The notes beneath the pieces are model-generated. The model saw only the letters and a list, made by a program, of their open reading frames with translations, did not search any database and was not told the DNA's origin. From Oscillospiraceae bacterium (GTDB lineage Bacteria; Bacillota; Clostridia; UMGS1883), in assembly GCA_015069065.1 (NCBI GenBank), contig SVJI01000003.1, positions 1-33,761 of the forward strand: a stretch of DNA of 33,761 nt, read 5' to 3'. Shown piece by piece: positions 12,694 to 25,998 of this stretch. Positions within the stretch are counted from its first letter, which is position 1. The number at the start of each line of letters is the position of its first letter. The position numbers were made by a program, and so were the translations under genes.

Positions 12694-13107
12694 TTATTTT
12701 TCTATTGTAACTGTAGAAGTTTCCTTGTCCCAGTTAACTGTTGCACCGAGTCCCTTTTCAAGAACAACGTTATTTACCAGTGTTCTGTCTGTGGAAAGAA
12801 TGGGTGCATTGTCCAGAAGAACCTCTTCATCATTTAAAAACATCTTATTGTTTCCAATCTGGATTGTTGTCAGAACATCGCCGCAGCTTGTAAATATTGT
12901 CTGGGTTTCACCCTGCCAGTTTACAATCGCTCCAAGCTTTTCTGCAACAAAACGAAGCGGAATCATAACGGTTTCTCCGTCAAGAACAGGCTGGCGGTCA
13001 AATTCTACAGCCTCGCCGTTTACCAGGACCTTAATATCTGCTGCAAGTGATGCAGTTGCGGTGAAAATCATCACCATAGCAAGTAATAATGTTACTACCT
13101 TTTTCAT
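12694..13107 (-). CDS. Secreted copper-amine-oxidase-N-like (stalk) domain protein
   Basis: This 137-residue protein has a signal peptide (MKKVVTLLLAMVMIFTATASLA, cleavage near residue 22). It then has a copper amine oxidase N-terminal-like domain (PF07833 type): IKVLVNGEAVEFDRQPVLDG, IPLRFVAEKLGA and VNWDKETSTVTIEK are the usual landmarks. Such domains are extracellular beta-rich stalks, common in Clostridia; they are not oxidases. The gene start overlaps the stop of the upstream gene as ATGA, with GGAGG about ten bases before, so the two are translationally coupled. It is essentially the domain alone, so it may be a binding or scaffold partner of the upstream product. Confidence 0.88.
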   Translation of the reverse strand: MKKVVTLLLAMVMIFTATASLAADIKVLVNGEAVEFDRQPVLDGETVMIPLRFVAEKLGAIVNWQGETQTIFTSCGDVLTTIQIGNNKMFLNDEEVLLDNAPILSTDRTLVNNVVLEKGLGATVNWDKETSTVTIEK

Positions 13108-14957
13108 ATTCCATCTACCTCCGTAATTTTATCTTTCTCGGGCTTTGTTTGTTCGTTTTTGGGATTTTCCTGCGAAGTGTCGGTATCCATGCTGTCATTT
13201 TTTAAATTTTCAGAATCAGCCATGATAGCTGAAACATCTGCATCAATGCTGTAAAACTCGCGTCCGTTTTCACTGTTTACGTACCATACAACCTTTCCGT
13301 TAGAAACCACAGGCTTACAGCTTGAAGAAAGTCTGCCGCTGACAGAGTATGTTTTTCCGAGCTGATTTCCCTCGCTGTCTGCTATTGCATAGCACAATGT
13401 GTTACTGTCCTCGCTGTAATCGTTAAAGCGCTGCCATAATACCATGAATTTTGAATCGGGCAGCTTAACGAGGTAGGGAACACTGCCACTTGAGCCTACT
13501 CCTGTGTAACGTGCCAGACAGGTGTGGCGCTGCTCCCATGTGTTCTTGTCTGTCCAAAGGAGGTATATATCGCGGTTTTCGCGGTCTATGCCCTCAATAT
13601 TAACATTACTGTAGCCTGTTGCGAGGGCGTGGTCAATTGTGTTCATCGAAACCAGATAACCCTCAGGCGAAACCTCAAAACCGCCTATCATTGCGCCTGT
13701 GCAGTTGGCACCTGCAGGACCGCCTACATTAAATATGCTTTGAGTATAAAGTACCTTTCCGCTAAAGTCAAGCTCCTGCAAAAAAGCTCCGCGCAGCGGT
13801 GCGGCATCAGAGAAGTTAGCGGTTATGAGCCTGCCGTCGTCAATGCGTACAAATTCACGCAGAGCGTGACTTGTGTGGTTGTATTGGAATTTTGACAGGA
13901 TATTAACCGGTTTCCATGAGGTCTTGTCTATTATAACTGTCAGCTGTGTTTGCGGGCGGGAGCCGTTTTCATCAGCATACTGACTGCGTGATGTATGGAG
14001 TACAAGATACCTCTCATCCTCAAACATTTCTCCTCCCGATGCGTCAAACGGAACAGCGGTTTTGCAGTTGTTTATTGAAACCTCACTGATTTTTACAAAG
14101 CTTTTATCGTAAATTGCGATTTTTATAACCTCGCGCGAATTATCCTCCAGCAAATTTTCCTGTCCGAATGCAATGTAGTTATAATCCTTGCCGACATAAA
14201 GTCCGCCAAAGAGCGGAAGCTCCTTTTTAATTGCAAAGGAGGAAAGGTGATTAAAGGATGAATCGTAATTTTCTATGTTTATATGCTCGGAAACTTCTAC
14301 CGCAGTAAAGGAGCCGTCACTGTTTGGTATAAGATGTGACGTTGCCGCCTTTCCCCACCTGTCAAAGGTTTGGCTTTTTGTTATCACAGAATCATCTGCA
14401 TCCAGAACGTGGTAGGAATTAACCTTGCTGATTGACGGAACATAAACTCCATCACGGTAAACATTTACCGTGCGGGCAGCTTCATCCCATACATATGTTC
14501 CGCACTGCTTTGCCAGATCGTCGGAGTATATACAGGTAAAACCGCCTATATTAAAGCTTTCAAGCACGGCAGTGTTAAAAACTGTCTTTATATCTGTGTA
14601 CAAAACGTCCATTACAGGAGTTCCCACAGGGAGAGAGGACACACTGTTTTCAAAGTGGAAATAACCGCGCCCGCCTGTTTGATAAATATCGCTGCCGGCT
14701 ATTGTGAGCATACGGTTGGAATCGTCGTAGTTTACACCGAAGGATAGCCCCATGGCGTTAAGGTTTTCCACGACAATAGCTGTTCGTCCGTTTATGTTAA
14801 AGGACGGAACCTGTATGCCGTCAATATATGTTACAATATCGGTGCTGAGAACTTTCCCCACAACATCACCCACATTTGCGGAGAAAACCGCGTGGCTTGA
14901 CAGTGTTAAAATGGAGGCAAGCGCACTGCATAGTATTTTTTTTGTTTTATTATTCAT
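13104..14957 (-). CDS. Secreted protein with two stalk-like domains and a beta-rich (propeller-like) C-terminus
   Basis: This 617-residue protein starts at 14957, where AGGAGG precedes an ATG and a signal peptide follows (MNNKTKKILCSALASILTLS, cleavage near SHAVFSA). The frame stays open upstream to 15143, but that part has no ribosome binding site and runs across the element boundary. Residues about 30-165 carry two copies of a copper-amine-oxidase-N-like motif (IDGIQVPSFNINGRTAIVVENL and FNTAVLESFNIGGFTCIYSDDL, each followed by a VNYDD/VWDEAARTVNVY strand). The rest is rich in short strand motifs such as LYVGKDYNYIAFG and ends in an acidic, Asn/Thr-rich tail, suggesting a beta-propeller. 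No enzyme motif is seen. It is probably exported and acts with the coupled downstream protein. Confidence 0.82.
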   Translation of the reverse strand: MNNKTKKILCSALASILTLSSHAVFSANVGDVVGKVLSTDIVTYIDGIQVPSFNINGRTAIVVENLNAMGLSFGVNYDDSNRMLTIAGSDIYQTGGRGYFHFENSVSSLPVGTPVMDVLYTDIKTVFNTAVLESFNIGGFTCIYSDDLAKQCGTYVWDEAARTVNVYRDGVYVPSISKVNSYHVLDADDSVITKSQTFDRWGKAATSHLIPNSDGSFTAVEVSEHINIENYDSSFNHLSSFAIKKELPLFGGLYVGKDYNYIAFGQENLLEDNSREVIKIAIYDKSFVKISEVSINNCKTAVPFDASGGEMFEDERYLVLHTSRSQYADENGSRPQTQLTVIIDKTSWKPVNILSKFQYNHTSHALREFVRIDDGRLITANFSDAAPLRGAFLQELDFSGKVLYTQSIFNVGGPAGANCTGAMIGGFEVSPEGYLVSMNTIDHALATGYSNVNIEGIDRENRDIYLLWTDKNTWEQRHTCLARYTGVGSSGSVPYLVKLPDSKFMVLWQRFNDYSEDSNTLCYAIADSEGNQLGKTYSVSGRLSSSCKPVVSNGKVVWYVNSENGREFYSIDADVSAIMADSENLKNDSMDTDTSQENPKNEQTKPEKDKITEVDGI

Positions 14958-15084: not shown

Positions 15085-15092
15085 AACTCTTC
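15085..15092. repeat. Target-site duplication, left copy
   Basis: AACTCTTC is repeated exactly at 25991-25998. The match ends at both sides, giving the 8-bp length expected for IS1595-family insertion. Note that AACTCTT also occurs inside the terminal repeat itself, so some of the resemblance could be target preference. Confidence 0.8.
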
Positions 15093-15148
15093 CCCATAAC
15101 TCTTAATTTTTGTGGAATGGAAGAAAATGTTGAGATTACACACAAAAA
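15093..15148 (+). repeat. Left terminal inverted repeat, bipartite
   Basis: Compared with the right end read in reverse, the outer 23 bases match at 19 positions without gaps (core ATAACTCTT and TGTGG). The next 11 bases do not match, and then ATGTTGAGATTACA (15127-15140) is identical. The spacing of the two blocks is the same at both ends, which suggests two separate transposase contacts. Confidence 0.85.
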
Positions 15149-15197
15149 TTGATTTAAGGTGTTGCGAAAATCAGCAGAGTTCGTTGGTGTGCTGAAA

Positions 15198-15288
15198 ATA
15201 TTTTTTGTCGGCTTTTTATATAGCCGATGTCAAGTCTTTTATAACAAAGACGAAAAGTTTTATAAAATTATCAAACTTTTTTATAAAA
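15198..15288 (+). repeat. Left subterminal array of TTTTATAAAA iterons
   Basis: Copies begin at 15214 (degenerate), 15237 (TTTTATAACA), 15258 and 15279 (both perfect), with steps of 23, 21 and 21 bases. ATATTTTTTGTC (15198-15209) precedes the array, and the same 12 bases precede the right array in the same orientation. A short hairpin, TCGGCT/AGCCGA (15208-15227), overlaps the first copy. This stretch between the terminal repeat and the transposase has no gene. Confidence 0.7.
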
Positions 15289-15320
15289 CGGCATCTGTCC
15301 ATCCAAATTTGTGTCTTCTA

Positions 15321-15349
15321 TTGAAATCATGCCCCTTTTACGCTATAAT
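15321..15349 (+). promoter_or_regulatory. Transposase promoter
   Basis: TTGAAA and TATAAT are separated by 17 bases. The expected transcription start is about 15355-15357, inside the loop of the hairpin at 15331-15373. Confidence 0.75.
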
Positions 15350-15373
15350 ATAAGAAAAGTAGCGTAAAGGGGC
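15331..15373 (+). promoter_or_regulatory. Hairpin overlapping the transposase promoter and ribosome binding site
   Basis: GCCCCTTTTACGCT (15331-15344) pairs with AGCGTAAAGGGGC (15361-15373) with one bulged T, plus an outer A-T at the loop end. The -10 box forms the end of the left arm, while the right arm contains AAAGGGG, the best Shine-Dalgarno candidate. RNA begun at the native promoter would lack the left arm; RNA read through from outside would contain both arms and hide the site. Confidence 0.65.
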
Positions 15374-15401
15374 GTTTGTCATAAGTATAAAGAAAAAAGC
15401 A

Positions 15402-17033
15402 TTGGAATTACGGGCGAAACAACAACGGCAAGCCGAGCTTGATGAAATTGCCGAGAGGCTGACACCCGAAGAGATTGAAAGACTAATTTCGGTCTATGAG
15501 AAAAAGACGGGAAGAAAGGCACTAAATCCAGCACCACAGCCTGACAAATTTGTGCAGTTCTTGAAACGGCAGGATTTTCACATGCTCTGCCCGTTCTGTA
15601 AAGGCAGAAATTATTATTCGCACAGCAATCCTCTTAGTCGGGATATTAGATTTTATTGTAATGATTGTAAAAAGGCATTCTCACCTTTTATAGGGACATT
15701 GGTTCAAGGGTCAGGGCTCTCTTGGGATGCATGGGTTGAATTGGTGCGTTGTACTTTGGAAAATAAGTCACTTGTAGCAACCAAACATCTACTTGAAGCT
15801 GATTATGGTGTATCTATGAACCAACAAACAATACTATCATACCGCCACAAAATACAAAAGGCAATCACCCTGACATTCCCGATGCCAAAGCTTTCGGGAG
15901 TAGTACAGGTTGATGAAACTTACTTTCGGGAGGGGCAAAAAGGCTCAAGAAGCCTTGTAAATGTTGCACCCACCGCCATTGACAAGAGAGAGGCACGCCT
16001 GCATACAAAATCACATCCAGGGAAAATGGGTATCAATGGTTCAGAATATTCCTGCATTGTTACTGGATATGAGAGTTCATCGGGAGGTGGAGGTCATATA
16101 GCAGCCGTGATGACAGGCCTTGGCAAAAGTTCCTCACAGCCTTTTGAAGATTATTTTGCAGACTACCTTGGTGATGTTACCTTTTTATGTAGTGACGGGT
16201 TTGAGGCATATAGCAGATACGCCGACAAACACGCTATTCCGCATTATGTGCAGATGTCTGAGGCAAGGTCAATAATTAAGAAAGAAATGCAGGATTATAA
16301 AGAACGCTATAAAACCGCAACAACAGCCGAAGCAGTAAGGGAAAGGCTTTATGGAACAAGACAGCTTGACTATATAGACAATTATAGCAATCTGAATTAT
16401 AAGCAGTTTGTAGAATTAAAAGTGGCAAAAGGTTTAACCTTAGATAATATTGACAACTACCACGCCGAGTTGAAACTTCGTATTAATAAAGAATTAAGGG
16501 GTGTTTCAACTGTTTATCTGCCTTTATATATAGGTTTTAGGGTATTTATACATAATTGGCGGGTAGACCACAATGACACCCCACCATCTTCAAGGGCTGA
16601 TGCTGAACAAATTTTTACTGCTTTACTTATGGCAGGTGATAATTATGTAAGCCGCAAAGATTTTGAGGGACTGTCAATTCTTGATTTTAATAGACCTGCA
16701 ACTAAATATATAAATCACCTGAAAAAATCACTTGATGAAATCCGCAGACAATCGGGAATAAAAGGTTTTACCTTTGATGATAATGACAGATTACTGACCT
16801 TTAATAAAAGAAAATATTTTGAAGATACACCAATGGCAAGATTAAAAGAAATCAGTAAGCAGTATCATATAAAAGGATATACTAAAATGACGGCGTATCA
16901 ACTGGCACGGGAAATTTGCAAGTTGCCCGAAGTTAATGACATTTTCCTGCGGCTTGTGGCAGCGGACGCCGTCCACTCACACTATATAGATGATTTAGCG
17001 GAATTGCTAAAAAAAGAAGAACAGGGAATTTAA
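15402..17033 (+). CDS. ISXO2/IS1595-type DDE transposase with N-terminal zinc ribbon
   Basis: The 543-residue protein has a coiled, charged start, a zinc ribbon (C63, C66, C86, C89), a helical segment, and an ISXO2-like catalytic domain with D171 in QVDETYF, D265 in CSDGFEAY, then N352, H354 and K358 in DNYHAELKLR and RGVSTVYLPLYIGF. This gives the family pattern of two Asp followed by an N/H/E position and Lys. About 150 residues follow the catalytic domain, longer than the usual family length (around 250-350 residues in total), and I do not recognise this extension. The TTG at 15402 has a poor ribosome binding site. An in-frame ATA at 15381 lies eight bases after AAAGGGG and would give the natural-looking start (M)SIKKKALELR, so the true start may be there. 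The terminator is at 17279. Confidence 0.92.
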   Translation: MELRAKQQRQAELDEIAERLTPEEIERLISVYEKKTGRKALNPAPQPDKFVQFLKRQDFHMLCPFCKGRNYYSHSNPLSRDIRFYCNDCKKAFSPFIGTLVQGSGLSWDAWVELVRCTLENKSLVATKHLLEADYGVSMNQQTILSYRHKIQKAITLTFPMPKLSGVVQVDETYFREGQKGSRSLVNVAPTAIDKREARLHTKSHPGKMGINGSEYSCIVTGYESSSGGGGHIAAVMTGLGKSSSQPFEDYFADYLGDVTFLCSDGFEAYSRYADKHAIPHYVQMSEARSIIKKEMQDYKERYKTATTAEAVRERLYGTRQLDYIDNYSNLNYKQFVELKVAKGLTLDNIDNYHAELKLRINKELRGVSTVYLPLYIGFRVFIHNWRVDHNDTPPSSRADAEQIFTALLMAGDNYVSRKDFEGLSILDFNRPATKYINHLKKSLDEIRRQSGIKGFTFDDNDRLLTFNKRKYFEDTPMARLKEISKQYHIKGYTKMTAYQLAREICKLPEVNDIFLRLVAADAVHSHYIDDLAELLKKEEQGI

Positions 17034-17067
17034 AATTCGCTGAATGACGGCATTCCCCGAAAATTCA

Positions 17068-17204
17068 AAAAGTGTTTGTCTAAAAGTGTTTGAAAATCGG
17101 CGAATAATGACCGAACCGCCGTTTTTGATGTTTTTTTGCCTGCTTTTTCATAAAAATTTAAAGATATCAGAGGTTAGAATTCCAAAAAAGTTAAAAAGTG
17201 TTTG
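17068..17204 (+). repeat. Three direct copies of AAAAGTGTTTG downstream of the transposase
   Basis: Copies are at 17068-17078, 17082-17092 and 17194-17204. The shorter AAAAGTGT recurs at 17449 and 17505, inside the structured leader. The 600-base gap between transposase and surface-protein genes holds these repeats, a terminator, a promoter, the leader RNA and a second terminator, but no gene I can support. Confidence 0.45.
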
Positions 17205-17278
17205 ACAGTTTTTTCAGCGTGGTTTTTTCTTCAACCAATACAGATAGTGTTTCCGGCACCGGAAGATGTGCCGATATG

Positions 17279-17320
17279 CAAATAAGGTTATCTCTAAACA
17301 GAGGTAGCCTTTATTTTTTG
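17279..17320 (+). terminator. Terminator of the transposase transcript
   Basis: AAATAAGGTTATCTCT pairs with AGAGGTAGCCTTTATT through a long stem with two G-U pairs and one bulge, loop AAAC, followed by a run of T. It separates transposase from cargo transcription. Confidence 0.75.
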
Positions 17321-17348
17321 TGCAAAAGTGAAAAAATCATAATTTTTA

Positions 17349-17377
17349 TTGTAATTACGGCAGCATTGTGGTATAAT
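17349..17377 (+). promoter_or_regulatory. Promoter of the giant surface-protein gene
   Basis: TTGTAA and TATAAT are separated by 17 bases. The predicted start, about 17384, coincides with the first base of the leader stem. Confidence 0.75.
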
Positions 17378-17383
17378 ATGTAA

Positions 17384-17517
17384 GCTACAACTTTTAATTT
17401 TTAAAACACAATTTAATATTTTACTTGCGTGAGGAGTACACTACTGTAAAAAGTGTACACTCTTGTTTCTCATACCCTTATGCAAGTAAGTTGTGTTATG
17501 AATTAAAAGTGTGTAGC
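17384..17517 (+). ncRNA. Structured leader RNA (candidate riboswitch or attenuator)
   Basis: The closing helix is GCTACA (17384-17389) with TGTAGC (17512-17517), continued past one bulged G by ACTTTTAATT (17390-17399) with AATTAAAAGT (17501-17510). Inside are AACACAA (17405-17411) with TTGTGTT (17491-17497), TTACTTGC (17421-17428) with GCAAGTAA (17482-17489), and a hairpin GTACACT/AGTGTAC (17436-17442, 17452-17458). The strand 17511-17517 can instead pair with the 3' arm of the following terminator. I cannot match it to a known riboswitch class or T-box. It could also be a stand-alone small RNA of about 200 bases. Confidence 0.65.
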
Positions 17518-17550
17518 AACCTTTTGAAACAGAGTCACTGCATTTTTTGG

Positions 17551-17589
17551 TGTGTGGCTCTTCTTTCGGGGGGAGCTACACATTTTTTT
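17551..17589 (+). terminator. Intrinsic terminator inside the leader
   Basis: TGTGTGGCTC (17551-17560) pairs with GAGCTACACA (17573-17582) with one G-U pair, followed by seven T. It stands between the promoter and the start codon at 17642, so the surface-protein gene can only be expressed by read-through or antitermination. Confidence 0.75.
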
Positions 17590-17641
17590 AATTCTTGAAA
17601 AATTAAAGTGTAAATATTTTATATAAAGGAGTTCAAGAAAA

Positions 17642-20600
17642 ATGAAACGGAAACAAAGTAAAGTATTGTCAATTCTGCTTTCGATTGCTATGCTGTGCAG
17701 CATGGTTGTGCCTACTGCTTTTGCAGCTGATAGCAGATATATTGACACAACCGACCATTGGGCAGAAACAGCCATTGAGCGGTGGAGTGATTACGGGATT
17801 ATTGAGGGATACGGCGATGCCTTTAACCCCGACTACTCAATCACACGCGGGCAAATGGCAACTATTCTGTCAAAGACATTAGGGCTAACAGAAGAAGCAG
17901 AAAATCCATTTAGTGATATCTCTGCCGATGAATGGTATGCTCCCTATGTTCTGCGTTGCTATAAAGCAGGCATAATGCTTGGAGATAACGGCAAGGCTAA
18001 TCCCGATGCGGAAATTACCAGACAAGAGGCAATGACTATGTTTTGCCGTGCTTTTGGTATTAAAGCAGATGAATCAGCAGACTTGACCTCTTTCAAGGAC
18101 AGCAGAGAAATTGCTGATTGGGCTTTACCTTATGTTTCCGCTTTAATAGACGGCGGTATTGTAAGCGGTGTTTCAAGTGATATGATTGCACCTGCTGAAA
18201 GTATGAGCAGAGCGGCACTTGTAACCATACTTGACCGTGCTGTGGTACAGTATGTTAATACAAGCGGGGAATATGACCTGACAGACAGCAATGGCATTAT
18301 TCTTGTAACTGCTGGCGATACCATCTTAAAGGGTGAGACAAAGGCTGACATTCTTATCACACAGGCGGCTGACGGAAAAGCTGTAACCTTTAAGGATGCA
18401 GCTGTTACGGGCGAGGTTACAGTTCAGGCTGACACAAAAATTATAAGTAACAATTCCAAGCTTCCCCAAATTGATGCAACTGTTGAGGAGGTTAAAAAGG
18501 AAACCCCTAAAAAACCTAGCGGTGGAAGCTCTGGTGGTAGTTCCAGACCCACTATCTCTAACCTGACAATCAGCGAGGAAAAAGCCTTAACAAGCGGTAC
18601 ATACAACAATGTAACTATAACCGATGCAGTAGCAGATGGTGAAGTTACTTTGAGCAATGTAACAATAAATGGTGATTTAACAATCAAAGGCGGTGGCTCA
18701 AGTTCTATCAAACTTGATAATTGTACCATTCAGGGTAAGGTTATTATGGCAAAAGAAACGGGCGAGACTCCCCGTCTTGAATTGACAAATACACCTGTTG
18801 CAACTGTTGAGGTACAGAAACCCGCTATCATTGAGGCAGTAGATAATGCCTCTGCTGTTACAAAGATTGAGGCAACCGCGAACATTGAAATCAAGGGTGA
18901 AAACACAAAGATTGAAACACTTGCAGTTCCTGAAACTGCGGAAAGTGCCGTAGCTGTAATTGTAACGGCTGGTAATGTTGCAACTGTTGAGGCAAAGGCT
19001 GAAACAAGTGTAACAGGTGCAAGCAATTCAGTTAATACAATCGTAGCAATAGCAGCGGTAACTGCTGATTCTGAGACAGTTCAAAAGGTGGAAATCCCCG
19101 AAACTGCAACAGAGAGCGTAAGCGTAACTGTGACAGGCGATGCATCTGTTGATGTTGAAATCAACTCAACAAGTGGTGCGGCTGTTATGGGTACAAATGT
19201 AACTGTTTCAACTACTCTTGAAACCGCTCCCGATAATATAACAGTAGGCGGTGAGGCTGTAAGTCACATCCATAAGTGGGGTGAGCCTGTTACCACACCT
19301 GCAACCTGTGAGCAGGATGGCGAAAATGTATATACCTGTATTGCTGACGGATGCGATGATACTGCTAAAACAAAGACAGAAGTAATCCATTCATTAGGTC
19401 ATAAATATGGTGATTGGAAGAAATCGGATGATGATTTGCATGTCCGTGAGTGTGCTAATGATAAAGACCACTATGAAAAACAAGAGCATACTTGGGACGA
19501 GGGTAAAATAACAACAGAAGCAAACTGCGGCCAAGATGGTGTAAAGACCTATACCTGCTCTGTATGTAAAGGTACAAAGACAGAAACAATAGGTAAACCT
19601 GAACATAACTGGGGTGACTGGGTAAAGGTAGATGCTACAAGCCACAAGAGGGTATGTAAGAACAATGCAACTCATATCGAAACAGCGGACCATACACCGA
19701 TTATTGATAGTGCAGTAGATGCTACCTGTACCGAAACAGGAAAAACAGAAGGCTCACATTGCGATGTTTGTAAGAGCGTGATTGTTGAGCAAACCACAAC
19801 ACCCGCATTAAAACACGATTTCACAGGGGAATATGAGAAGGATGCTGATGGTCATTGGCATATCTGCGAGCGTGATAACTGCGAAGAAACCGACACAAAG
19901 GCAGGTCATACCTACAACACAACAAATTGTGCAGAGGTTGCAACCTGTACTGAATGTAAATATGAAAAGCCAGCGGGCGAGCATACTTGGAGTGATTGGG
20001 AAAAGGTAGATGATACCAACCACAAACACACCTGCTCCTGTACCGCAACAGAAACAGAAGAGCATAAATGGGATGACGGCGAAATCACAACCGAGCCGAC
20101 AGAAACAACAGAGGGTGTAAAAACCTATACTTGCTCTGAATGTAAAGGAACAAAGACCGAGGCTGTGCCTGTGATTGTTTCAGCAAATTATGCATTTGTT
20201 GAAAACCACGAAGGGAATCCATTAAGAATTTCTTGGAAAGAATCTGCTCTTGCTGCTGAAAATGGATACAAGCTGAAATTTGATGGATATAATACGACTA
20301 TGGGAACAGCACGCACTGTAGTTAATTTAGCACCTATTTTAGTGCTTGATAGTTTGCAAAACGGAAAGCTTTCTATGGCGGTTTATACAGGTCCTGATTG
20401 GGTAAATCTTACACCGATATATTCTTCAAAGGAAATAGGAAATATTACTATTAACAACAAAACACCTGAATTCGAAATTGAGAAGGATGAAAGCGGAAAT
20501 TACAACTTCGTTTCTGAATTGACAGGCGGAATGTGGGTTTACGAGCTTTATAATAATGACACCATCTATTATGCAAATAATGATGTTAATGGTGCTATCG

Positions 20601-23600
20601 ATTCGTATGCTAATTTTGCTGACGGACATACTGTAAAAGCACGTTATGTTACTTGGACACTTAACGATGATAAAACTTTTGCTGAATTTACGGTGTCTAA
20701 CATTGCAACCTATACCTACAAGGAATCTGTTGCAAGCGATGTAACAATCACATTAGTTCAGGAAGGCGACAGTATTAAGGCAACTTGGACGGGAACAGAC
20801 TTACCCAATTACTATTTCGAAATTGAAGATAGCAACGGAAAATATGTAACAAGCGGCTGGACAAATGGAGATGAATGTTGCATAGCAGACCTTTCGCTTT
20901 ATCTTCCCAGAGCGGATGAGGACAGTAATTACACTCTTGTAGTATATTCTGCGAACGAGAATTGGATTGTAGTTGAAGAAATAGCAAGGTTGTACAACTG
21001 CTTTGAAATTACTGTTTTAGGAAATGTCGTTGAATATAATATGGTATTTAATGATGGCGAAGACGGCGTGCATAGTGTTACGCTGGCAGGTGATACATTA
21101 CCCAGCGGTATTCGATTGCTTGATGCTTGGTATGATAGTTTAGGAAAGCTAAGAAGTTCTGGGTCTTCAAGCATAAGTAGAAATAAAACGGAACATCAGG
21201 CAATTCAAAATGGCTATGATTATGATTTAAGAGTTTTAACTGCCTATGCGCTTGATGGGCAGACTATAAAGGCAACAATGACTCCTCCTTCAAAGAAAAC
21301 ATATGTAAATGAAGATGAACCGAAAATTAAATGGAATGACGGCGGAACAATTGCATGGCAGGCAGTAGCAAATGCCGATGATTACAAGTTGAATATCTAT
21401 TCAGGAGATACTGTTGACAGCACCAAGCTTGTCGCAACCAAAAACATAGGTACTTATAGCACAGTATATCAAATTAGCAGTAATTTTGATATAGCAGAAC
21501 TGGCTGACAATAAAGATGCTACCTTTACTGTTGAACTCTTGGCACTTGATACAAATGATAATGTAATCGAAACTGTCGGGGTATTGGCAGAGGGTATAAA
21601 TTTAACCTTTACCGAATCCGCTCCCGAATTCAGCTTTGAAGTAACAGGCGAAAAGACCTACACCATAACCTTTGCCGAGGGAACACCCAACGGAATGCGA
21701 TACAGCCAATGGTATGATGCTGAAGGAAATAAGTCGGGTGGAATGTCAGGTTTTGGCATGACACAATTAACAAATGCTGGAGAAAGAGCCTATGCCTTTG
21801 CTGATGGAGATACAATCAAAGTTTATATTGCAACAGTAGATACTATCACAGATACTGTATGGACTATTACCAGAACACCTGATGCGGTACAGATATATAC
21901 CACAGAAGAAACAGATGCTTCTCTTATTTCATTCCGCAAATGGAATACAGACATAATGTTTGACGGATACGATGATGTTGCAGATACAAAGAGCCTTGAA
22001 GTAGACGGAATTAAGGTGTTGTCAAAGAAGACAGAAACAATGAGTGAGTTTCTCTTTGATTATGACCAGACAAAAGGAAATATTACAGATGCAGATTTCG
22101 TTGTAGAACTTGATGGCGTTGAAAAGGAAAGAATTAAGGGAAATGTTGATGTAACACTTTCAAATACAGATGTTGCATTTACAATAAATACAGACGGAAC
22201 ATTGTCTTTTGATGCAACCACACACGGCAGCTTTGCTTATGAGACAACAACAAAGGACGGAATGACTCATCAAGTAGGTAGAATAGCCTTTAATAATGGT
22301 ACATTGGTGGATGGTTGGACGCTTCCGACTCTTGCTGATGGTGAAACAATTGACATTATGCACATTGATTGTACCTATGACGAAACCACTAAATCAATTT
22401 CTGCAACTATATCAAAGCATACAACAAAAACCCATACCGCAACAAGTGATAAAAACATTTGGTTTAGTGAAGATGGCGACGGAATATATGTAGAGTGGAA
22501 AGAAACAGAGCTTGCAGATGGTGAAAAGTATTTTATCACAATGCGGAACCCCGAAAGCCTGTTTACCCGAACAAAAGCAAAGTTGGATTTAGGTACTTTT
22601 TTTGATGAAAGTGATATTGTAAACGGCAAACTTGCAATAAAGGTTGATACAGGAACAAGCTGGAGCGATGTTGAAAATCTTTATGATGAAAAGGAATTTG
22701 CCAATGTTACTTTAACCAATACTACCCCCGACTTCACTATTGAAAAAGATAGTACAGGAAAATATAAGTTTGTATCCGACCTATCAGGTGGAGCTTGGGT
22801 TTATACCACATATGACGAAAATAGCAACCTTATGTATGTAGGAAATGTGGTTAATGGAGCAATAGATACTTATGCTAATTTTGCTGACGGACATACTGTA
22901 AAAGCACGCTATATAACTTGGACACTTAACGATGATAAAACTTTTGCTGAATTTACGGTGTCTAACCTTGCAACATACACCTACAATGAGCCTGTCGCAA
23001 GCGATACAAATGCCCATCTTATGATGGACGGTGATTATCTTTATCTTGTGTTTGAGGATGAAGAGGGACTCGGAGCAAATGAGTGGTATTATGTTCTTCA
23101 AAACGGGGAGAATATCACAAGCGAAGACCTTAAGGAAATAGAACTCACATGGCTTTTGCCGGGAATTAGCGAAAATACGGTCTTAAATTACGAAATTCAA
23201 AAAGGAACATGGCAGACAAAGGAAACTTTTGTAAAGCTTGACAATGCAATCAATATTACTGTAACTGATTCTGCACCTAATCTGTCACTTGTTCCACAAG
23301 CAGATGGTACATACAAAATAACAGGCGGCGGGGACACAGGATATTTTTACCGTGTGACAACACCCGAGGGCGACCGCCTTGCAACAGATTATACACTTGA
23401 CGATACATTCCTTTGTTCAATATACGAAGGATGCACAGTAGAACTCCAGACCGGAACAATAACAGTTGCCGAGGATGGACTTTCTGCAAATATCACAATG
23501 AGTCCGGTTGTTAAAATAGAAAATCCCACACTCCCGACAGGACTTAACACTGTGGTTGAAGTTGATACGGCAGACAAGCTTCTTGATGCGGTAAACAGAG

Positions 23601-24553
23601 GTGCGATTGCAACGCTTACCGCAGATATCACAAGCGAAAATGTGTTTAAGTTCAAAACCGGCGCACCTGCAACAATTGACCTTAACGGGCATACACTTAC
23701 TGCACCTACTGTGAGAGCATATTACGGTAAAGAGCTTACAATTGATGCAACCAAGGCCGGCAGTGCTATTAACGCAACTCTTACGACCAATCTCAAGGGA
23801 AGCTTTATTTTAACCGGCGGAACATATGAGCGTATCAGACTCAGTGGAGGTAAAAAGTTTATAGCAAACGGAATTACGGTACAAAGCTCCGGGGCATATG
23901 AACCTGTAGAAATAGGCGCTATGGATTATGTTGAAATAAACAACTCAAGTTGCATAAGCACATCAACCGCCGAACTAACAAGTGGTCTATACATATGGGA
24001 ATGTAACGAAGTAAAGCTTACTAATGTTACTGCAAGTGCAATAAGTAATTGGTTTGGTGCAGACATTGCATGGTGCGAAAAGGTGAATATCACCGGCGGA
24101 AGTTTCAGCGCAGAGAACAACGATGGACTTCGTTTTGTGGAATGCGAAAGTGCAACTATTGATGGTGCAAGCGTAAGCGGTAGCACAACTGCGCTTCTTG
24201 TTCAGGATGGAGCGGTTGCAGAGATTAATGGTGGAACATTTACATCAGCAGGGAACTCAGCAATTCAGCTTTCAAGAGAAGATTCTGCGCTTACGATAAA
24301 CAACGGAACATTCATTGCAAATGGTGATGGCTCTATAAAGAATATTGTAATAATGGAAGATACAAATACTTTCATTATTAATGGTGGAACATTTGAAGGA
24401 TTTTCCGGTGTTACATACTCTGATACTGCTACTGTAAGTATAAACGGTGGCACATTCAGCTTTGACCCCACAGAATATGTGGATACTGCTACTCATACTG
24501 TAACTGATAACGGAGACGGAACATTCGTAGTAACGGCAATCAAAACTGAGTAA
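17642..24553 (+). CDS. Giant SLH-domain surface protein with repeats and C-terminal beta-helix
   Basis: This 2303-residue secreted protein has a signal peptide ending near residue 28 (VVPTAFA) and then three SLH domains (about 32-75, 95-137, 150-198) that should bind pyruvylated wall polymer. Next comes a strand-rich region with a Gly/Ser linker (SGGSSGGSS, near 292-300). Residues 543-845 hold repeats with HxW and paired CxxC motifs (CSVCKG, CDVCKS, CTECKY, CSECKG). Two homologous modules follow (about 848-1100 and 1603-1860) with beta-sandwich-like sequence between and after. The C-terminal 330 residues look like a parallel beta-helix, with repeated INGGTF motifs. There is no LPXTG anchor, so SLH is the anchor. 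The start has AAAGGAG upstream. It is the main cargo of the element; adhesion or glycan binding is a reasonable guess, not shown. Confidence 0.9.
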   Translation: MKRKQSKVLSILLSIAMLCSMVVPTAFAADSRYIDTTDHWAETAIERWSDYGIIEGYGDAFNPDYSITRGQMATILSKTLGLTEEAENPFSDISADEWYAPYVLRCYKAGIMLGDNGKANPDAEITRQEAMTMFCRAFGIKADESADLTSFKDSREIADWALPYVSALIDGGIVSGVSSDMIAPAESMSRAALVTILDRAVVQYVNTSGEYDLTDSNGIILVTAGDTILKGETKADILITQAADGKAVTFKDAAVTGEVTVQADTKIISNNSKLPQIDATVEEVKKETPKKPSGGSSGGSSRPTISNLTISEEKALTSGTYNNVTITDAVADGEVTLSNVTINGDLTIKGGGSSSIKLDNCTIQGKVIMAKETGETPRLELTNTPVATVEVQKPAIIEAVDNASAVTKIEATANIEIKGENTKIETLAVPETAESAVAVIVTAGNVATVEAKAETSVTGASNSVNTIVAIAAVTADSETVQKVEIPETATESVSVTVTGDASVDVEINSTSGAAVMGTNVTVSTTLETAPDNITVGGEAVSHIHKWGEPVTTPATCEQDGENVYTCIADGCDDTAKTKTEVIHSLGHKYGDWKKSDDDLHVRECANDKDHYEKQEHTWDEGKITTEANCGQDGVKTYTCSVCKGTKTETIGKPEHNWGDWVKVDATSHKRVCKNNATHIETADHTPIIDSAVDATCTETGKTEGSHCDVCKSVIVEQTTTPALKHDFTGEYEKDADGHWHICERDNCEETDTKAGHTYNTTNCAEVATCTECKYEKPAGEHTWSDWEKVDDTNHKHTCSCTATETEEHKWDDGEITTEPTETTEGVKTYTCSECKGTKTEAVPVIVSANYAFVENHEGNPLRISWKESALAAENGYKLKFDGYNTTMGTARTVVNLAPILVLDSLQNGKLSMAVYTGPDWVNLTPIYSSKEIGNITINNKTPEFEIEKDESGNYNFVSELTGGMWVYELYNNDTIYYANNDVNGAIDSYANFADGHTVKARYVTWTLNDDKTFAEFTVSNIATYTYKESVASDVTITLVQEGDSIKATWTGTDLPNYYFEIEDSNGKYVTSGWTNGDECCIADLSLYLPRADEDSNYTLVVYSANENWIVVEEIARLYNCFEITVLGNVVEYNMVFNDGEDGVHSVTLAGDTLPSGIRLLDAWYDSLGKLRSSGSSSISRNKTEHQAIQNGYDYDLRVLTAYALDGQTIKATMTPPSKKTYVNEDEPKIKWNDGGTIAWQAVANADDYKLNIYSGDTVDSTKLVATKNIGTYSTVYQISSNFDIAELADNKDATFTVELLALDTNDNVIETVGVLAEGINLTFTESAPEFSFEVTGEKTYTITFAEGTPNGMRYSQWYDAEGNKSGGMSGFGMTQLTNAGERAYAFADGDTIKVYIATVDTITDTVWTITRTPDAVQIYTTEETDASLISFRKWNTDIMFDGYDDVADTKSLEVDGIKVLSKKTETMSEFLFDYDQTKGNITDADFVVELDGVEKERIKGNVDVTLSNTDVAFTINTDGTLSFDATTHGSFAYETTTKDGMTHQVGRIAFNNGTLVDGWTLPTLADGETIDIMHIDCTYDETTKSISATISKHTTKTHTATSDKNIWFSEDGDGIYVEWKETELADGEKYFITMRNPESLFTRTKAKLDLGTFFDESDIVNGKLAIKVDTGTSWSDVENLYDEKEFANVTLTNTTPDFTIEKDSTGKYKFVSDLSGGAWVYTTYDENSNLMYVGNVVNGAIDTYANFADGHTVKARYITWTLNDDKTFAEFTVSNLATYTYNEPVASDTNAHLMMDGDYLYLVFEDEEGLGANEWYYVLQNGENITSEDLKEIELTWLLPGISENTVLNYEIQKGTWQTKETFVKLDNAINITVTDSAPNLSLVPQADGTYKITGGGDTGYFYRVTTPEGDRLATDYTLDDTFLCSIYEGCTVELQTGTITVAEDGLSANITMSPVVKIENPTLPTGLNTVVEVDTADKLLDAVNRGAIATLTADITSENVFKFKTGAPATIDLNGHTLTAPTVRAYYGKELTIDATKAGSAINATLTTNLKGSFILTGGTYERIRLSGGKKFIANGITVQSSGAYEPVEIGAMDYVEINNSSCISTSTAELTSGLYIWECNEVKLTNVTASAISNWFGADIAWCEKVNITGGSFSAENNDGLRFVECESATIDGASVSGSTTALLVQDGAVAEINGGTFTSAGNSAIQLSREDSALTINNGTFIANGDGSIKNIVIMEDTNTFIINGGTFEGFSGVTYSDTATVSINGGTFSFDPTEYVDTATHTVTDNGDGTFVVTAIKTE
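20606..20701 (+). repeat. Internal 96-bp near-identical repeat, copy 1
   Basis: This segment encodes YANFADGHTVKARYVTW and the following TLNDDKTFAEFTVSN. It matches 22871-22966 at 93 of 96 bases, including synonymous positions, much closer than the surrounding modules. Confidence 0.85.
22871..22966 (+). repeat. Internal 96-bp near-identical repeat, copy 2
   Basis: Second copy of the segment at 20606-20701, 2265 bases downstream in the same frame and at the same place in the second homologous module. Confidence 0.85.
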
Positions 24554-24568
24554 AATTAGATGATTTTG

Positions 24569-24609
24569 GCGGCACCCTTGCGAAATGCAAGCGGTGCCGC
24601 TGTTTTTTT
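24569..24609 (+). terminator. Terminator of the giant surface-protein gene
   Basis: GCGGCACC (24569-24576) pairs with GGTGCCGC (24593-24600), with TTGC/GCAA inside, followed by a run of eight T. The 190 bases after it, up to 24801, hold a small TTTCAC/GTGAAA hairpin but no clear promoter. Confidence 0.85.
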
Positions 24610-24801
24610 TGTTCCGATAAGAAATGAGTGAAAATTTTTAAATTTAAAAAGGAGAACTGGACATATACAGGCTTGGGGTGGTCAACAAAATATATTTTTA
24701 TACAGAAGCAAAAAATCAAGAAAACAGTTTTTGCTGTGATTTCAAGGTTTTATGTTTCACTCACCAACAGGTGAAATTTAATATAGAAGGAGGGTTGGAA
24801 A

Positions 24802-25230
24802 ATGAAAAAAGATTATGTAATTAAAAATGAAGCTACTAATGATTTTTCTGCTATGGGTACTCTTAATGTTAAAGTGGGTCCAAGATTTGGTAGGGTTTTA
24901 AGAGATTTAATAGAGGAAAATTTAATTGCTGGCGCTACTGTTGATATGGCTAATGAAAATCAGATGGCAATTCATTTTATTGCAGGTGACCCTATGGCTA
25001 CCAGTGATGAAAATGATAATGGTTTTGTTAATGGTTTTTCTGGTGATAATGGTTTTTTAGTTAAAGTAGGCTCACGCATAGGTAGAGTTTTAGTAAAGCT
25101 TGGTGAAGATTTTCTTTTAACAAGTGCAAGTTTGTCTATGATAAATGAGACAACAGTTTCAGTTAATCTTAATATCGGGGATATTGGTATTGAGTTAATA
25201 GAAACAGATAATGTGGAAGGAGATGATTGA
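24802..25230 (+). CDS. Small cargo protein with two 43-residue repeats, unknown
   Basis: This 142-residue acidic protein consists of two tandem repeats, residues 21-63 (starting LNVKVGPRFGRVLRDL) and 85-127 (starting FLVKVGSRIGRVLVKL), both ending in GD. They are joined by an Asp/Asn/Gly-rich linker, and an acidic tail follows. The repeat pattern is strand, basic GRVL helix, then two strands, so a beta-alpha-beta-beta unit is likely. There is no signal peptide or membrane segment. GGAGGG precedes the ATG. Base composition is more AT-rich than in host genes. It overlaps the ribosome binding region of the next gene, which suggests the two work together. I do not recognise a family. Confidence 0.75.
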   Translation: MKKDYVIKNEATNDFSAMGTLNVKVGPRFGRVLRDLIEENLIAGATVDMANENQMAIHFIAGDPMATSDENDNGFVNGFSGDNGFLVKVGSRIGRVLVKLGEDFLLTSASLSMINETTVSVNLNIGDIGIELIETDNVEGDD

Positions 25231-25232
25231 GT

Positions 25233-25616
25233 ATGAGTCAATCAAATGCTTTTACAGGTGTGCCTTATGTGTATGCAAATAGAAGGGGTTATCCCGACAT
25301 TGCATACACAAAGGCAATGTATCTAAACATAGAGGTTCCAAGAGAGAACTATTATGTTGATAATGCTGGTGAAGACAAACAGCTAATGTATTTATTTCAA
25401 GAGTTAAATGATGGTGATGTTGTTATTATTGGTACAATAACAGACCTTATGATACCTGAAATTAGTGATATGTTAAACCATTTAGAGCATTTTGATGAAT
25501 TAGGAGTGCAGGTTATATCAGCTTTACAACCAGACTATAACATAGAAGATTACAGAGAGATAGTAAGGTTAGCTGATATAATCAGCAGGGTAAGATTAGG
25601 GCAAAAGCCTGTATAA
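25233..25616 (+). CDS. Resolvase-fold protein lacking serine-recombinase catalytic residues
   Basis: This 127-residue protein aligns by eye with the N-terminal domain of serine resolvases: PYVYANRRGYPDIAYTKAMY stands where YARVSTxxQ would be, and LNDGDVVIIGTITDLM, then ISDMLNHLEHFDELGVQVIS, match the conserved GD-strand, the usual DRLGR site and the GV-strand. The catalytic Ser and the Arg residues of YARVS and DRLGR are missing, and there is no C-terminal DNA-binding domain. It should therefore be a non-catalytic, possibly regulatory, protein. The ATG at 25233 is preferred (GGAAGGAG ten bases before); a TTG at 25227 would add two residues. It starts three bases after the preceding stop, indicating coupling. 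The assignment is by pattern only. Confidence 0.7.
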   Translation: MSQSNAFTGVPYVYANRRGYPDIAYTKAMYLNIEVPRENYYVDNAGEDKQLMYLFQELNDGDVVIIGTITDLMIPEISDMLNHLEHFDELGVQVISALQPDYNIEDYREIVRLADIISRVRLGQKPV

Positions 25617-25625
25617 GTTAAATTT

Positions 25626-25671
25626 AAAGTAGCAGTTGTGTAGGTAGGAGCGCACAACTGCTACTTTTTTT
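25626..25671 (+). terminator. Terminator of the small cargo gene pair
   Basis: AAAGTAGCAGTTGTG (25626-25640) and CACAACTGCTACTTT (25653-25667) form a perfect 15-bp stem with a 12-base loop and a T-run. Confidence 0.9.
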
Positions 25672-25683
25672 GATAATTTTTTA

Positions 25684-25755
25684 CGATGCCGGAAATCAGC
25701 ATCGCATTTGTACGGAATTCGTGCATCGGGGGTATAAAGCTCCCGATATTTTTTG
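25684..25755 (+). terminator. Two overlapping hairpins, the second terminator-like
   Basis: CGATGC (25684-25689) can pair with GCATCG at 25699-25704 or with a second GCATCG at 25723-25728. The second copy overlaps ATCGGG (25725-25730), which pairs with CCCGAT (25742-25747) before a T-run. The pairings exclude each other. No gene follows before the element end, so its role is unclear; the 25672-25990 stretch otherwise holds only the iteron array and the terminal repeat. Confidence 0.5.
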
Positions 25756-25903
25756 TCTTAATATTTTATAAAAAATCCGCTGCTTTTTATAAATAAAGCG
25801 AAATATTTTATAAAAGCTTATAGTCATTTTTATAAAATCATATGAAAAGTTTTATAAAAAGGCAAAAAAACTTAACCACACCATAACAACAAACTTTATA
25901 AAA
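25746..25903 (+). repeat. Right subterminal array of TTTTATAAAA iterons
   Basis: Copies begin at 25764, 25785 (TTTTATAAAT), 25806, 25828, 25850 and 25894 (first base C), with steps of 21, 21, 22, 22 and 44 bases. The 44-base step equals two periods and leaves room for a decayed copy near 25872. ATATTTTTTGTC (25746-25757) precedes the array, as on the left. Confidence 0.8.
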
Positions 25904-25934
25904 TTATGAGCATTTTAAAGCGGTAGAAACAGCG

Positions 25935-25990
25935 TTTTTTGTTGTAATCTCAACATAAAAATTTTTCCCACAGAAAAAAAGAGTTATAGG
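25935..25990 (-). repeat. Right terminal inverted repeat, bipartite
   Basis: This is the inverted partner of 15093-15148. The inner block TGTAATCTCAACAT (25943-25956) is the exact complement of the left inner block, and the outer 23 bases match at 19 positions. Confidence 0.85.
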
Positions 25991-25998
25991 AACTCTTC
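25991..25998. repeat. Target-site duplication, right copy
   Basis: AACTCTTC, identical to 15085-15092. Removing the element and one copy would join GCGTTC, AACTCTTC and AAAATTCTTGAC into one short divergent-promoter region. Confidence 0.8.

Follow-up and report, generated by a model that had tools for sequence, protein, structure and literature searches.

A predicted hairpin over the promoter of an IS1595-like transposase gene may block translation of transcripts entering from outside

In the window, the whole stretch of 33,761 nucleotides of Oscillospiraceae DNA analysed here, an IS1595-like transposase gene is preceded by a predicted RNA hairpin whose left arm consists mostly of the -35/-10 spacer of the gene's promoter and whose right arm contains the entire Shine-Dalgarno sequence (SD). 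On balance, we lean toward the reading that this hairpin acts as a translational block, directed at RNA that reaches the transposase gene from outside. Polymerase initiating at the element's own promoter would start within the hairpin loop, yielding a native mRNA that would lack the left arm and keep the SD free; a transcript initiated further upstream would carry both arms, fold immediately and bury the SD. A guard against outside transcription is sensible at this site because the gene encodes a transposase within an element that has TIRs and an 8-bp duplication. Although it was picked post hoc, chance alone would not be expected to produce SD hiding of this magnitude within 34 kb. Where transcription starts, how translation is affected and whether selection built the hairpin are all inferred, and the proposed function appears plausible though unproven; it is of a known kind and may or may not be an adaptation of the transposon.

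The transposase promoter (15321-15349, plus strand, as are all features below unless stated) carries 11 of 12 consensus bases, with a TTGAAA -35 box (15321-15326), a 17-nt spacer and a TATAAT -10 box (15344-15349), and this match at 17-nt spacing places the expected transcription start at 15356-15357, inside the hairpin loop. The stem extends over 15329-15375 and comprises 17 bp, formed between 15329-15338 and 15340-15346 of the left arm (15329-15346) and the right arm given by the fold prediction (15359-15375), with one bulged base (U15339) and a 12-nt loop. Its MFE was -25.6 kcal/mol, shuffled sequences averaged -11.3 (z -5.16), and none of 200 shuffles was as low. A sequence-only reading of this DNA had assigned the -10 box to the left arm, which holds only for its first three bases (15344-15346), the remainder lying in the loop; the same reading put the SD, AAAGGGG (15366-15372), in the right arm, and this motif is indeed wholly within the paired region. 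A 12-codon frame without an SD of its own crosses the hairpin from an ATG at 15329 and stops on the SD with a TAA at 15367. Neither strand carries a terminator-like site at the stem, and an Rfam search of the hairpin gave no match.

When evaluating the energy required to open the SD, we obtained a predicted cost of 2.1 kcal/mol for native starts at 15356-15358 and of 16.1-17.8 kcal/mol for read-through starts at 15327, 15321, 15237, 15093 and 14900, in agreement, on predicted thermodynamics, with the earlier proposal that an outside transcript would hide the site. RNA beginning at 15357 is predicted to fold at -11.1 kcal/mol (z +0.7), forming neither the hairpin nor any comparable structure. 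With the 40 nt upstream dinucleotide-shuffled and the native transcript kept constant, the observed opening cost of 15.0 kcal/mol was reached by 1 of 2000 shuffles, whose mean was 4.5 kcal/mol. Additionally, this promoter ranked second for SD hiding among 210 short-leader promoter-gene pairs drawn from four genomes of the family.

The low native opening cost fits the accompanying claim that a native transcript without the left arm would be translatable, but that claim is weakened by an AUA start. The 550-codon transposase frame (15381-17033) is intact and opens with an ATA at 15381, 8 nt past the SD and ahead of the conserved N-terminal region, where relatives have ATG or GTG; the sequence-only reading was silent on this ATA at the conserved start position. 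There are two possibilities: AUA serves as a weak start, or a G-to-A change abolished the start, leaving as the next usable in-frame codon a TTG at 15402 that has no clear SD. Because the start codon is AUA, native translation is probably weak: the native transposase mRNA may be poorly translated, and the codon suggests low transposase output even from the element's own promoter.

The transposase matched the IS1595 transposase model NF033547 at E 7e-19 and 68.5 bits, a score below the curated cut-off of 75, and Zn_ribbon_IS1595 at E 0.035, also under its cut-off, while weak matches to Pfam DDE_Tnp_IS1595 were obtained for relatives only. Four cysteines (C70, C73, C93 and C96) are invariant in transposase alignment A1. 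Siguier et al. 2009 reportedly include members with passenger genes in the IS1595 family. The family is characterised by an 8-bp target duplication and an N-terminal zinc finger (PMC8101967), and the present element shares the 8-bp duplication and TIRs and has a candidate zinc ribbon and IS1595-type DDE domain, both scoring below cut-offs. It differs in its longer, 550-aa transposase below the NCBIfam cut-off, in ends that begin CCYATAACT and in a very large surface-protein cargo. Its earlier assignment to the IS1595 kind is thus upheld by the 8-bp duplication and the model E-value and tempered by the sub-cut-off score and by its being a cargo transposon, not a plain IS.

Present in one copy in its genome, the element is a 10,898-bp transposon (15093-25990) delimited by TIRs and by a perfectly duplicated 8-bp target, AACTCTTC. 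The left TIR (CCCATAACTCTTAATTTTTGTGG..., 15093-15148) adjoins the AACTCTTC copy at 15085-15092 and has a 75% inverted match to the right TIR (25936-25990), which terminates in AGTTATAGG, adjoins the AACTCTTC copy at 25991-25998 and shares 86% identity with the corresponding end of the related locus L009. These ends (CCTATAACT...AGTTATAGG) and the 8-bp duplications were defined by comparing L003, L005 and L009, in which the duplications are perfect, and the target duplications in relatives are TTTTTTGT, AAATGGTA, ATTTTAGG and CTTTAATA. Repeats of the TTTTATAA type lie inside the left end (15237-15288), with similar ones near the right end (25760-25860), and are possibly transposase-binding sites; numerous TTTTATAA repeats were also seen upstream of L013-L019.

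The cargo comprises a secreted 2303-aa protein with three S-layer homology (SLH) domains (17642-24553) and two ORFs of 142 aa (24802-25230) and 129 aa (25227-25616), neither with a family match; a resemblance of these two right-end ORFs to ORFs of L012 was unsupported by BLASTP. Relatives with matching ends carry other cargo, namely a lipoprotein, small membrane proteins or, in L012, a 1237-aa BspA-type LRR protein. Ahead of the cargo gene is a strongly structured leader RNA (17380-17589, -75 kcal/mol) with a terminator-like hairpin at its end, which matched neither an Rfam family nor any of the viral contigs searched. A long stem may form within this leader, and its 3' strand would share nucleotides with the 5' strand of the terminator-like stem, in an attenuator-like manner. 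A counterpart RNA (-67 kcal/mol) occurs at about 7990-8180 of L018, and the two have the block GTGTGTAGCAACCTTWTG...CAGAGT in common with different cargo.

The proposed block has precedents among mobile elements and phages. In IS10 (Tn10) and IS50 (Tn5), the transposase promoter starts transcription inside inverted sequence, so that longer transcripts from outside fold and hide the initiation region. The present layout is alike in that the left arm would lie upstream of the native start with the SD in the right arm, and in that the native transcript is predicted to leave the SD free at the cost of 2.1 kcal/mol; however, here the left arm sits between the -35 and -10 boxes, and whereas the protection of IS10 and IS50 was tested experimentally, the present case is a prediction whose pairing is not kept among relatives. 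Late genes of phage T4 such as e are similar in that their ribosome site is buried in early read-through RNA and a promoter internal to the hairpin frees it, although T4 uses the arrangement for timing in a lytic phage and not as a transposase guard. The transposase mRNA of ISPpu9 has an inhibitory 5'-UTR structure, with small RNAs taking part (PMC8450116), and so does that of IS200 according to the account given in the same article; these resemble the present case in that structure in the mRNA leader limits transposase translation, but their structure resides in their own 5'-UTR, whereas here the native mRNA is predicted to be free of it. Upstream transcription raises IS1 transposition (PMC12428005), so a guard of this kind could matter. 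At its present site, the element is expected to receive little read-through because the left neighbour gene (13104-14957, minus strand) is transcribed away from it.

An alignment-based scan yielded L011-L019. We compared the promoter region with nine aligned relatives, with transposase identities of 57-60% (L011, L012), 45-52% (L005, L013, L015, L016, L017) and 41-42% (L018, L019). The nine have a common layout of a TTGA-type -35 box and TATAAT, with an SD following within some 20 nt: TTGA stands at the same place in all nine, TATAAT is invariant in the alignment, and AAAAGGGGG or GGAGG occupies the place matching the SD. The left arm is not present in the relatives, and none of the nine, whose transposases are 41-60% identical, has an SD-hiding stem or a left arm complementary to its SD. 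Pairing is therefore not conserved in these related elements, an outcome that the sequence-only reading had named as one that would refute its proposal. The SD-opening costs of the relatives' read-through RNAs were inside the shuffle range, and weaker SD hiding by CCCTTTTATAA repeats in those RNAs, considered as a candidate, was no greater than in shuffles. On the nine-relative alignment, 66% of pair cells were standard and several core pairs were broken in most relatives. A pair-count test exceeded shuffled and slid controls on an alignment that is gapped, holds few independent lineages and has A/U-rich columns that pair readily; the shared stem suggested by these counts was rejected on the folding energies.

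Because the nine aligned relatives are without an SD-hiding stem, the stem probably belongs to this copy or its near lineage alone, as far as the relatives found (41-60%) can tell, and the hairpin seems to have arisen recently. No close relatives turned up in single-protein scans of genome and viral contigs, whole-genome searches across the family, order, class and phylum found nearest transposases at 43-53% and nothing closer, and plasmids and phages held only distant IS1595 members at about 20-28%. In L012, the transposase is split into two frames at about 7350, the end of the first frame, and is probably broken.

This privacy also suits a neutral quasi-palindrome, in which template switching during replication copied the SD region into an unconstrained spacer and any block is an unselected side effect. 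Consistent with such an event, comparison with the relatives marks the left arm as the new part, the right arm being the ancestral SD, and near-perfect inverted repeats occur at other promoters with the SD outside the stem (L158, L108). We nonetheless regard a neutral origin as unlikely, given that the outer stem covers the SD exactly, that promoter spacing and hexamers were left intact, and that host spacers specifically hiding the SD exceed permuted spacers.

That last observation raises a further alternative, a clade-wide habit in which an anti-SD spacer in a subset of the family's genes allows only own-promoter transcripts to be translated and the transposon uses or acquired this local style. 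The layout is not transposase-specific: in the loci compared, it is also seen at unrelated genes of hosts from this bacterial family. Promoter spacers complementary to their own SD precede a GDPD-type gene (L076), a lipoprotein gene (L068) and a sirtuin-like gene (L077), as well as a secreted-protein gene at about 2340-2396 of L012; the GDPD example, one of several host-gene cases from a pattern search, reads TTGACT-TTTGCCCCCTTTGACTT-TATAAT-ATAGTCAAAGGGGGTTTTATAATG. At thioredoxin-reductase-like orthologs of one genus (L084 and L073), the outer pairs are kept with one compensatory change, and two genomes conserve the layout at L080 and L071, where no clear ORF follows. The gene names given here are putative, taken from the translations. 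Comparing own with permuted spacers at the 210 short-leader pairs, which have predicted promoters and come from about 1.7 Mb of four genomes of one family, we observed SD hiding of at least 5 kcal/mol in 9 of 210 compared with 3.2 expected; excluding two previously known cases left 7 against 3.1 expected, a number that none of 60 permutations reached. The motif CCCTT-TATAAT-AAGGG had 19 matches versus 9, 10 and 2 for controls among the 13 family genomes listed, in a hand count that includes some matches inside genes and one palindrome counted twice.

Against a general habit, however, the layout concerns only a few percent of short-leader genes, in four genomes and with predicted promoters. Class-wide, among 391 genomes, the pattern was barely commoner than its control (247 versus 223 genomes). 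An ortholog search for the GDPD gene of L076 found none, and among the reductase orthologs the layout is not kept outside the one genus. The excess at host genes is therefore modest and suggestive, not proof of a clade habit, and we consider it improbable that such a habit accounts for the transposase hairpin. A DNA operator, in which a repressor (the transposase or a host regulator) would bind the promoter dyad and the RNA fold would be a by-product, is more improbable still: the arms do flank the -10 box, the usual operator position, and a short dyad ATACTT...AAGTAT surrounds the -10 box in some relatives, but the one-base bulge makes the half-sites differ, which is awkward for a symmetric dimer, the whole dyad was not found elsewhere in the loci examined and is not kept by relatives, and the left arm matches two viral contigs that both lack the right arm, a number about that expected by chance.

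We return, then, to the translational block as the favored reading. A broader version, which we hold to be rather unlikely, is that in a subset of the family's genes, mobile and host alike, an anti-SD segment in the -35/-10 spacer silences translation of read-through from neighbours, a promoter-coupled translational insulation of which the transposase would be one case. If the host cases are real, they would represent a cheap and simple bacterial way to keep neighbouring transcription untranslated. If the block at the transposase gene works, an IS1595-type cargo transposon would join the few elements known to use RNA folding to silence transcription from outside, and such a guard could emerge in one lineage with few promoter-spacer changes needed.
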